The position numbers and the translations under genes are program-made. Positions 45,201 through 49,070 of a DNA stretch of 64,000 bases are shown in pieces. The notes under the pieces are model-generated. The model was not told where the DNA came from. It searched no databases and worked only from the letters and a program-made list of their open reading frames with translations. Origin of the DNA: Burkholderiales bacterium RIFCSPLOWO2_12_FULL_65_40 (GTDB lineage: Bacteria; Pseudomonadota; Gammaproteobacteria; Burkholderiales; Burkholderiaceae_C); the NCBI GenBank assembly GCA_001770955.1, contig MESL01000023.1, positions 1 through 64,000 on the forward strand. The letters run 5' to 3'. Every line of letters begins with the position of its first letter. Within the stretch, counting starts at the first letter, position 1.

Positions 45201-45228
45201 CTCCCTTCCTCCTGCGACAATCGGGGGC

Positions 45229-46347
45229 ATGAGCACCACCTTCGCCCCCCTCACCAACGACACCTTCCTGCGCGCCTGCCGTCGCCAGGCCACCGACTAC
45301 ACCCCTCTGTGGCTGATGCGCCAGGCGGGCCGCTACCTGCCCGAATACAAGGCCACGCGCGCCCAGGCCGGCAGCTTCATGGGCCTGGCCACCAACGTGG
45401 ACTTCGCCACGGAAGTGACCCTGCAGCCACTCGAGCGCTTCCCGCTCGACGCCGCCATTCTGTTCAGCGACATCCTCACCGTGCCCGACGCCATGGGCCT
45501 GGGTTTGACCTTTGCCGAGGGCGAGGGCCCGCGCTTTGCCAAGTCGGTGCGCAATGAAGCCGGCGTGGCCGAGCTGGCCGTGCCCGACATGGACAAGCTG
45601 CGCTACGTGTTCGACGCCGTCACCAGCATCCGCAAGGCGCTCAATGGCCGCGTGCCGCTGATCGGCTTCTCGGGCAGCCCCTGGACGCTGGCCTGCTACA
45701 TGGTCGAGGGCAAGGGCAGTGACGACTACCGCCTCGTCAAGACGCTGATGTACAGCCGTCCCGACCTGATGCACCGCATCCTGGCCGTGAATGCCGACGC
45801 CGTGGCGCAGTACCTGAACGCCCAGATCGACGCGGGCGCCCAGGCCGTGATGGTGTTCGACAGCTGGGGCGGCGTGCTCGCCGACGGCTGCTTCCAGGAC
45901 TTCAGCCTGGAATACACCAAGCGCGTGCTCGCCCAACTCAAGCGCACCGGCGTGGACGGCCAGGACGTGCCGCGCATCGTCTTCACCAAGGGCGGCGGCA
46001 TCTGGCTCGACGACATGAAGGACATCGACTGCGAGGTGTTGGGCCTGGACTGGACGGCCAACCTGGGCAAGGCGCGCGCCATCGTCGGCGGCCAGGTGGG
46101 CGGCCCCGGCAAGGCGCTGCAGGGCAACATCGACCCCAACGTGCTGTTCGCCCCGCCCGCGCAGATCGTCACCCAGGTGCACGCCGTGCTCGACAGCTTC
46201 GGCACGCCGCACACCGACCGCAGCACCACCGGCCCTACGCACATCTTCAACCTGGGCCACGGCATCAGTCAGTTCACGCCGCCCGAGCATGTGGCCGCGT
46301 TGGTCGAAGCCGTGCACAGCCACTCGCGCGCGCAGCGCAGGGCTTGA
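45229..46347 (+). CDS. hemE: Uroporphyrinogen decarboxylase HemE
   Basis: [36 protein letters not shown] at 45229. Confidence 0.97.
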
Positions 46348-46387
46348 TTCCGGGCAACCCGGCTGTCTGACTTATGCACACCGGCAC

Positions 46388-46424
46388 GGTGGCACCTACC
46401 TGCCTTGCGCCAGTGGGTGCCACC
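46388..46424 (+). terminator. Hairpin downstream of hemE
   Basis: GGTGGCACC...GGTGCCACC, perfect 9-bp stem. Confidence 0.35.
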
Positions 46425-46559
46425 GCTCTGTAAAGTGCCACGCCCCCTCCACAGCGTCGCAAGTGCTTGATTTCATTCACCCGTCGTTATTGCTGCTTTG
46501 GCGGGCACCCTGTTGAAAGCCCGTGTTTTCAAGGCCTTGCAGCCCATGCCCAGGGGATA

Positions 46560-46580
46560 TCAACAAAGTTATCCACAGAA
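46560..46580 (+). repeat. 21-bp direct repeat containing DnaA box (unit 1)
   Basis: TCAACAAAGTTATCCACAGAA, identical to 46887-46907. Confidence 0.9.
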
Positions 46581-46886
46581 AATCGGGACGATTGCAAAAA
46601 TCCTTGTCATGACAAGCACTTGCAGTGAAAACCCAAAAAAGTGAGTGAACCGGCGCCGTGCATGACGCAGATCCGGTTTGCTGCCACAGGTTGACGTGAC
46701 CAAATGCAACGACTTGTGCACACTTCCCGCACTGTGGTATGCCCCCCGACACCGCGCCCCCTGCAAAAGCCCATGGACACGATGGACACCATTGATTCAT
46801 ATGAACTTTTTCAACAGCTCCCCTTTGAGAGGCTGCTTTTTGGCCAGGGTATCCCGTCAGCCCGGCCCCCCCCGGACGCGAGGATG

Positions 46887-46907
46887 TCAACAAAGTTATC
46901 CACAGAA
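46887..46907 (+). repeat. 21-bp direct repeat containing DnaA box (unit 2)
   Basis: TCAACAAAGTTATCCACAGAA. Confidence 0.9.
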
Positions 46908-46967
46908 GTGGACCTCCCCCGGCGCAAAGGCCTGAAAATCAAGCACTTAGCGCAACAAGCTGAAGCC

Positions 46968-49070
46968 GTGAATACGCCCCTCCCCACCGTGCAGGTCGCC
47001 GTGCACACGCCGTCGCACAGCGGCGTGGGGGATCTGCTCGACTACACCTGTGAGCGCCCACTAGCGCCGGGCGCATTGGTACGTGTGCCTCTGGGCGCCC
47101 GGGAGGTGCTGGGCGTGGTGTGGGACGGCCACAGCGCACCGCCGCCAGAGGGTCGCACGCTGCGCCCGGTGGCCGGCGTGCTGGAGGGCATCGCTCCGCT
47201 GGACGCGCACTGGCGCCGCCTGGTGGCCTTTGCGGCGCGCTACTACCAGCGCAGTCTGGGCGAAGTGGCGCTATCGGCCCTGCCACCGCAGTTGCGCGAC
47301 CTGGGCCCCGAGCAGCTGGCGCGCCGCCTGCGCCGCCCCGCACGCGAGGCCTCCCCCGCAATCGCTACACCTTTGATAGCGCTCAGCGCAGAGCAGGAAA
47401 GCGCTCGTGCCGAAATTTCTTCAAAAAATGGCCCCTTCCTGCTGTTCGGCAGCACCGGCAGCGGCAAGACCGAGGTGTACCTGCGCTGCGTGCAGGAGGT
47501 GCTGGAGCAGGACGAGCACGCCCAGGCGCTGGTGATGGTGCCCGAGATCAACCTCACGCCGCAGCTCGAGGAACGCTTCATCGCACGCTTTGGCGCCGGG
47601 GCGGTGGTGTCGCTGCACAGCGGCATGACGAACCCGCAGCGCCTCAAGGCCTGGCTGGCCGCGCACAGCGGGCAGGCGCGCATCGTGCTGGGCACGCGCA
47701 TGGCGGTGTTCGCGTCGCTGCCGGGCCTGCGCCTCATCGTGGTGGACGAGGAACACGACCCGAGCTACAAGCAGCAGGAAGGCGCACGCTACTCGGCGCG
47801 CGACCTGGCGTTGTGGCGCGGGCGCGAGCAGGGCGCCAAGGTCATCCTCGGTTCGGCCACGCCCTCGCTGGAGAGCTGGCACGCCAGCCGCCCGCCCAGC
47901 CCCGAAGACCCCGAGGGCGGGCGCTACCTGCGCCTGCACATGCCCAGCCGCGTCGGCGCGGGCGAGCTGCCGCGCGTGCGCCGCGTGGACATGAACCACC
48001 AGCCCCGGCGCACCGTGTTCTCGGCCCCGCTGCTGACCGCGCTGCAGGAGCGCGTGGAACGCGGCGAGCAGAGCATGATCCTGCTCAACCGCCGGGGCTA
48101 TGCCCCCGTGCTGCACTGTCAGGACTGCGGCTGGAAGAGCGACTGCCCGCACTGCAGTGCGCACCAGGTGTTCCACAAACTCGACCGCACGCTGCGCTGC
48201 CACCACTGCGGCTTCACGGTGCGCGTGCCGCGCGCCTGCCCCGGCTGCGGCAGCCCGGACATCGTGCCCATCGGCCGGGGTACCGAGCAGCTCGAAGAGC
48301 AGCTCGGCGAGCTGCTCGCCGCCGTGCGCCGCCCCGACGGCACGCCGGTGCGCATCGCGCGCATCGACGCCGACACCACGCGCCTCAAGGGCGCGCTGGA
48401 GAGCCAGCTGGCCCAGGTGCACACGGGCGAGGTGGACGTGCTCGTGGGCACGCAGATGATCGCCAAGGGCCACGACTTCCGCCGCATCACGCTGGTGGCC
48501 GCCGTGCAACCGGATGGCGCCCTGTTTTCCAGCGACTTCCGCGCGCCCGAGCGCCTGTTCGCCTTGCTGATGCAGGCCGGGGGCCGCGCCGGGCGCGACG
48601 CGGCCTACATGGCGGCGCAGGGCACGCGCTGCGAAATGTGGGTGCAAACCTTCCACCCGCAGCACGGCGTGTTCGAGGCGCTGCGCCTGCACGACTACCC
48701 GGCCTTTGCCGCCCAGCAACTGAAGGAGCGCGAAGAGGCCGCCATGCCGCCGTTCGCCTTCCAGGCCCTGGTGCGCGCCGACGCCCGCACGCAGGAGGTG
48801 GCCCAGGGCTTCCTCGCCGCAGCCAGCAGCGCCGCCCACGCCCACGGCCTGCCGGGGCTGGAGCAGGTCACGCTCTACCCACCGGTGCCGCTGACCATCC
48901 AGCGCGTGGCCAACGTGGAGCGCGCCCAGATGCTGCTCGAAAGCAGCAACCGCACGGCTTTGCAACGCTTTCTGGCCCACTGGCAACCCGTGATGCAGGC
49001 CACGCGCAGCCAGCCCGAGCACAAGGGGCTGATCCGCTGGCTGGTGGATGTGGACCCGCTGGCGATCTGA
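46968..49070 (+). CDS. priA: Primosomal protein/helicase PriA
   Basis: Walker A GSTGSGKTEVYL, DEEHD, Zn-binding CQDCGWKSDCPHCSAH...CHHCG...CPGCG; likely GTG start at 46968 (ORF open from 46704). Confidence 0.94.
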   Translation: MNTPLPTVQVAVHTPSHSGVGDLLDYTCERPLAPGALVRVPLGAREVLGVVWDGHSAPPPEGRTLRPVAGVLEGIAPLDAHWRRLVAFAARYYQRSLGEVALSALPPQLRDLGPEQLARRLRRPAREASPAIATPLIALSAEQESARAEISSKNGPFLLFGSTGSGKTEVYLRCVQEVLEQDEHAQALVMVPEINLTPQLEERFIARFGAGAVVSLHSGMTNPQRLKAWLAAHSGQARIVLGTRMAVFASLPGLRLIVVDEEHDPSYKQQEGARYSARDLALWRGREQGAKVILGSATPSLESWHASRPPSPEDPEGGRYLRLHMPSRVGAGELPRVRRVDMNHQPRRTVFSAPLLTALQERVERGEQSMILLNRRGYAPVLHCQDCGWKSDCPHCSAHQVFHKLDRTLRCHHCGFTVRVPRACPGCGSPDIVPIGRGTEQLEEQLGELLAAVRRPDGTPVRIARIDADTTRLKGALESQLAQVHTGEVDVLVGTQMIAKGHDFRRITLVAAVQPDGALFSSDFRAPERLFALLMQAGGRAGRDAAYMAAQGTRCEMWVQTFHPQHGVFEALRLHDYPAFAAQQLKEREEAAMPPFAFQALVRADARTQEVAQGFLAAASSAAHAHGLPGLEQVTLYPPVPLTIQRVANVERAQMLLESSNRTALQRFLAHWQPVMQATRSQPEHKGLIRWLVDVDPLAI
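47369..47428 (+). repeat. ATAGC repeat, family 1 (copy h), inside priA
   Basis: CCTTTGATAGCGCTCAGCGCAGAGCAGGAAAGCGCTCGTGCCGAAATTTCTTC. Confidence 0.55.

Follow-up and report, generated by a model that had tools for sequence, protein, structure and literature searches.

Among the closest described systems for the locus studied here are two elements of Escherichia coli, both DnaA-reactivating sequences (DARS), at which the replication initiator DnaA is recharged. DARS2 lies in the gap between rppH and mutH, and DARS1 lies upstream of uvrB. Boxes I and II of DARS are opposed, supporting a head-to-head arrangement of ADP-DnaA (PMC8682772). The IHF sites IBS1 and IBS2 of DARS2 are 3 bp apart, and their spacing to the core is important; IHF and Fis have been reported as activators for DARS2, not for DARS1 (PMC4245941). 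Gammaproteobacteria related to E. coli share a conserved DARS2 core (PMC4245941); conservation has also been described for E. coli-proximal beta- or gammaproteobacteria (PMC5742627), and a further comparison covers seven E. coli-proximal species (PMC8682772). The minimal form of datA requires boxes in the same direction and one IBS (PMC5742627). In the open-licence literature we found no paper that deals with DARS in betaproteobacteria or with DnaA or IHF sites upstream of priA.

Reading DARS2 along a single strand, with box CTATCCACA set at 0, we find TTCTTCACA at −12 and the inverted box TTATTCACC at +14. IHF-like sequences with 8/9 matches are located at −99 (minus strand) and −83 (plus strand), 3 bp apart, and an inverted TTATCCACA is found at −197. 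The core geometry of DARS1 is the same. The DARS2 region has another DARS-like core, GTTATCCACAGAAAGCTGGGATAA (L217, 2944–3087), which scores lower (21.6 bits) and lies to the right of the published one.

DnaA Boxes in the hemE-priA Gap

We have analyzed a stretch of 64 kb of DNA, termed the window. Positions 46348–46967 form the gap between hemE and priA, and contain four DnaA-box sites, all on the + strand. These sites had been picked out in the original prediction, and all four are where it had placed them. The sequence TTATNCACA occurs three times in the window, each time within the gap, compared with an expectation of 0.27; a count of three was reached in none of 100 shuffles. The pattern TTRTNCACA is found four times in the window, again exclusively in the gap, and the four boxes are its sole TTATNCACA or TTGTNCACA sites. 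The density of boxes in the gap is higher than elsewhere in the window.

Both copies of TTATCCACA lie inside a 26-nt direct repeat, GGATRTCAACAAAGTTATCCACAGAA (46555–46580 and 46882–46907), 327 bp apart. There are 15 exact copies of TTATCCACA in the assembly from which the window comes, and the extended repeat TCAACAAAGTTATCCACAGAA, allowing up to three mismatches, is found there only in these two places. Three of the 15 genomic copies of TTATCCACA (L002, L011 and L013 at position 1501) sit in a dispersed repeat, ATAGCTGCTNGCGCTTATCCACANNGCGCNAGA.

The gap consists of two tandem copies of a single module, ~327 bp apart. The order of the module is an A box TTATGCACA, a minus-strand IHF site, and a core in which TTATCCACA is preceded at a distance of 3 bp by a weak box and followed at 5 bp by an inverted one. 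The four boxes are real, but the original prediction had missed the direct repeat and the tandem duplication of the larger module. The site at 46714, earlier listed with one mismatch, is present as a match to TTRTNCACA, and can be further identified as the A box of the second copy. The features are as follows; R1 is the profile described below.

45223–46347, + strand: hemE, uroporphyrinogen decarboxylase, upstream neighbor (Pfam PF01208, E = 9e-129)
46372–46380, + strand: module 1 A box TTATGCACA, exact DnaA box, 197 bp upstream of the core box
46456–46601, + strand: module 1 stretch matching R1, from IHF site to core (57.9 bits, E = 2.5e-15 for the genome)
46460–46472, − strand: module 1 predicted IHF site CAAGTGCTTGATT, 9/9 to the reverse complement of WATCAANNNNTTR, 109 bp before the core box
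46557–46565, + strand: module 1 box III-like ATATCAACA, 7/9, separated by 3 bp from the box II that follows
46569–46577, + strand: module 1 box II TTATCCACA, exact
46583–46591, − strand: module 1 box I position, eroded to TCGTCCCGA, 5/9, 5 bp after box II
46714–46722, + strand: module 2 A box, which has decayed to TTGTGCACA; most relatives with tandem copies have TTATGCACA here
46785–46797, − strand: module 2 degraded predicted IHF site GACACCATTGATT, 7/9, aligned by R1 to the IHF position
46790–46909, + strand: module 2 stretch matching R1 (29 bits, E = 2.4e-6 for the genome)
46884–46892, + strand: module 2 box III-like ATGTCAACA, 6/9, at −12 as in module 1
46896–46904, + strand: module 2 box II TTATCCACA, exact; its inverted box I is lost (2/9)
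46937–46949, + strand: predicted IHF site AATCAAGCACTTA, 9/9, ~40 bp after module 2 box II, mainly a Comamonadaceae feature
46968–49070, + strand: priA, likely GTG start, downstream gene in the same orientation (PF17764 PriA_3primeBD, PF18074 PriA_C, PF18319)

Module 1 has retained the A box, the IHF site and boxes III and II, and module 2 retains box II and the right-hand IHF site. The boundaries of the gap are right, because the GTG at 46968 is likely to be the start of priA, with the PriA 3′BD domain running from residue 9. An in-frame ATG at 46704 gives a mechanical priA ORF of 788 aa that swallows module 2, and an ORF caller using this ATG could hide module 2 inside priA.

Conservation of the Module in Related Genomes

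Loci around hemE from 80 related genomes were compared for the anatomy of the gap. For 69 Comamonadaceae hemE-priA gaps the locus includes both genes. At least one TTATCCACA is found in 67 of these gaps and the A-core pair in 61; the boxes are conserved in relatives. The gaps of the relatives contain the module once or twice in tandem, or up to four copies of TTATCCACA. The distance from the A box TTATGCACA to TTATCCACA is most often 187–189 bp, with some first copies at 197–199 bp, and all are on the + strand. In the tandem gaps the TTATCCACA boxes are mostly 325–338 bp apart.

The spacing of the IHF site is also conserved. The IHF consensus YAANNNNTTGATW is found on the minus strand at a fixed −109/−110 from TTATCCACA in 77 of 83 Comamonadaceae modules, 18 of 20 modules from other Burkholderiales and 12 of 17 gammaproteobacterial modules. 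Shuffles gave expectations of 3.6, 1.3 and 1.6 for the three groups respectively, and the site occurs on the other strand at this position just 2, 1 and 0 times. A plus-strand IHF site at ~+40 is present in 60 of the 83 Comamonadaceae modules (2.2 expected).

Within the core, a weak box NTNTCMACA in the same direction as box II exhibits a sharp peak at exactly −12, leaving a gap of 3 bp, and the inverted box I peaks sharply at exactly +14, leaving a gap of 5 bp; this is true for all three groups. Box I averages 6.8/9 in the gammaproteobacteria, near consensus, and is weak across the Comamonadaceae.

Distribution and Linkage to priA

A strict pattern, TTATGCACA-N165..194-TTATCCACA, was found in 176 of the 400 genomes searched in the order, compared with 1 of 400 for the reversed control. 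For the class the count is 138 out of 369 genomes, and the matches listed include none to the control. Among 61 oriented module loci, hemE precedes and priA follows the module in 40, and in nine priA follows without hemE. The remainder comprise three loci with rpmE downstream and nine without hemE, priA or rpmE in the flank. In 49 of the 61, then, priA is the gene that comes immediately after the module, in gammaproteobacteria without hemE there as well, and since priA is downstream with or without hemE, it is the constant neighbor. The distance from module to dnaA ranges from ~23 kb (G091) to hundreds of kb. Among 30 pattern-negative genomes, one per family, several carry variant pairs of boxes following hemE (e.g., L179, L183, L185 and L187).

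Is the region then a promoter of priA controlled by DnaA and IHF, coupling the capacity for replication restart to the activity of DnaA? The position and orientation of priA in the 49 loci, which cover most of the betaproteobacterial and many of the gammaproteobacterial ones, would fit such a function, as would the arrangement in the window, where the last core ends ~65 bp before the priA start with an IHF site in between. Yet three modules are placed beside rpmE and nine elsewhere, with no priA in the flank, related elements occur at many other loci (beside xseA in two relatives, for example), and we found no sigma-70 promoter-like match in the gap. Moreover, several pattern-negative genomes (e.g., L170–L172) keep hemE and priA without boxes. 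We regard control of priA by DnaA, which was also an option of the original prediction, as possible but doubtful.

Comparison with E. coli DARS1 and DARS2

The module shares with DARS2 a core geometry of the form III-3-II-5-I, although its box I is well kept in the gammaproteobacteria and weak in the Comamonadaceae. Also shared are an IHF site in the same orientation, placed beyond box III at ~100 bp from box II, and a further DnaA box near −190/−197. In the window, boxes II and III are in tandem and 3 bp apart, and the predicted IHF site on the box III side matches at 9/9 positions at −109 in module 1 and at 7/9 in module 2. There are also differences from DARS2. The IHF site of the module is at −109/−110 rather than −99, a displacement of one helical turn. 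Beyond its IHF site DARS2 has the Fis site FBS2-3 and box V; at the comparable place the module has the A box, which is opposite in orientation to the DARS2 box at −197. The module is found upstream of priA, whereas DARS2 lies beside mutH. In the window species it is present in tandem copies, and box I, which in E. coli DARS pairs head-to-head with box II, is eroded. DARS1 has the same core geometry, but unlike the module it is a single short site.

We constructed a sequence-only profile (R1, 156 positions) from 34 beta- and gammaproteobacterial modules, excluding E. coli, and searched it against selected regions of the E. coli genome. DARS1 was matched with 30.7 bits over model positions 7–148, and the DARS2 match, of 30.3 bits, covers positions 5–147; both are nearly full length. 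Using nhmmer, reversed-sequence decoys gave a maximum of 9.9 bits, compared with 24.2 for DARS1 and 20.6 for DARS2. The match to oriC was partial (17.9 bits), and that to datA comprised separate fragments only, with 21.6 bits at positions 78–138 and 9.6 bits elsewhere. A DARS-like locus was one option raised in the original prediction, and it is supported by the core geometry, the position of the IHF site and the matches of R1 to both E. coli elements.

Alternative Functions

Might the boxes serve as a passive site for titration of DnaA? They are predicted to be of high affinity and have been duplicated in the lineage to two, and up to four, copies of TTATCCACA, and the erosion of box I has spared the exact boxes. 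Titration, however, needs neither the fixed IHF spacing of 109–110 bp nor conserved positions for boxes III and I, and we consider it unlikely.

A second alternative is an element like datA, in which DnaA boxes flanking an IHF site promote the hydrolysis of ATP by DnaA. The DnaA boxes surrounding the IHF site in one direction, in the order box(+)-IHF(−)-box(+), and the orientation of that site are as in E. coli datA, and same-direction boxes with one IBS are its minimal requirement (PMC5742627). This was the first match made by eye, and was dropped since the core spacing and the profile search favored DARS. The spacings of the module are off by about one turn, two 9/9 IHF sites are present rather than a single one, and the inverted box takes the DARS position of +14 and not the +12 of datA. 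The datA-like option of the original prediction agrees in the order of the boxes, but not in their spacing, and has a fragmentary profile match; it is a weaker match than DARS and is distinctly improbable.

In Caulobacter and some other alphaproteobacteria hemE flanks oriC, which includes DnaA boxes and IHF. The present locus has the same three features, and an origin remnant was among the options of the original prediction. In contrast to the alphaproteobacterial origins, GC skew and gene neighborhood show that it is not an origin. In the relative G004 (3.97 Mb), the GC skew changes sign at ~2.9–3.1 Mb and dnaA is at 3.09 Mb, whereas the module is located at 2.41 Mb inside the negative skew arm, away from the switch; oriC was rejected on this basis. 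The gammaproteobacterial module loci lack hemE, which is an incidental neighbor, and in the window species an oriC-like cluster with a DnaA-trio-like run is found elsewhere in the genome (C35:104.7–105.2 kb). An origin or remnant beside hemE can be virtually discounted.

The oriC-like cluster (G000:C35:104702–105218; L007, 1501–2017) contains four exact copies of TTATCCACA, followed by CTACTACTACTGC, which is DnaA-trio-like, and AT-rich DNA. It lies ~42 kb from dnaA (C35:146680–148029), between genes that by eye are PagL-like and EAL-domain. From these motifs it is probably an oriC separated from dnaA.

A structured RNA in the priA leader, with the boxes coincidental, was suggested by the opposed arms AAGTGCTTGATTT and AAATCAAGCACTT and by local hairpins, but is scarcely credible and was rejected, given that there is no Rfam match, that the invariant positions are those of the DnaA boxes, and that the arms correspond to a pair of IHF consensus sites in opposed orientation with varying NNNN, so that covariation of the inverted repeat is not evidence for RNA.

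Related Elements in the Pseudomonadota

Of 160 Pseudomonadota genomes, 114 have elements that match R1 with E up to 1e-4, frequently with several in the same genome; over 400 kb of a relative, R1 gave no match at E up to 10. A set of 29 loci from among the best R1 matches mostly have the core and an IHF site near −110, with box I at 7–9/9. These loci are at many positions, and only three have priA in the flank. Because the E-values are rough and R1 prescribes the core spacing, which by itself is not independent evidence in R1 matches, this breadth is a strong lead and not proof.

Two relatives carry, next to xseA, a second element of this type in which box I is good (L250, G004:C1:1062375–1062513; L249, G030:C1:1574929–1575064). 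Its other neighbor looks by eye like exbB/tolQ, and in G004 it is roughly opposite dnaA. An XseA query against the assembly of the window species gave no match, so that a second, xseA-side copy cannot be judged there. In family f240, genomes G855 and G845 have up to nine DARS-like profile matches spread over the contigs. A further core in the Comamonadaceae (L121, G033) has IHF-like sites on both sides, near a gene that is MinD-like by eye.

On balance we lean toward the view that DARS2-type elements form an ancient family found throughout the Pseudomonadota, often with several members per genome, and that an ancestral copy became fixed upstream of priA in the beta- and gammaproteobacteria.

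Discussion

The hemE-priA gap is probably a tandem pair of DARS2-type elements, where an IHF-induced bend and the recharging of DnaA that we infer would tune a distant oriC. IHF would bend the DNA ~110 bp from the III-3-II-5-I core, bringing the distal A box toward it. By analogy with work on E. coli, where DARS2 with IHF and Fis promotes the release of ADP from DnaA, the DnaA of the window species, probably in its ADP form, would assemble on the core and there exchange nucleotide, losing ADP and forming ATP-DnaA. Initiation-competent DnaA would then leave, and the locus would in this way advance or tune initiation at the distant oriC. The genome of the window species encodes Hda, together with an IHF-β-like protein that scores 114.1 bits, below the cut-off of 119.95.

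Erosion of the inverted box I in the window species means that DARS biochemistry can only be inferred for its two modules. Given that erosion, one or both copies may be weakened, they may act together, or they may mainly bind DnaA.

A DARS role does not explain the persistent linkage to priA, and this raises the question of why the element stays beside the gene for the replication-restart helicase. If the elements are active, control of the nucleotide state of DnaA by dedicated chromosomal sites would be much older and wider, and the DNA preceding priA would offer a predictable place at which to test for it in many non-enteric bacteria. If the family is indeed as ancient as we suggest, the regulated reactivation of DnaA would be no speciality of the E. 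coli group, and the control of restart by PriA and of initiation by DnaA would share one locus.
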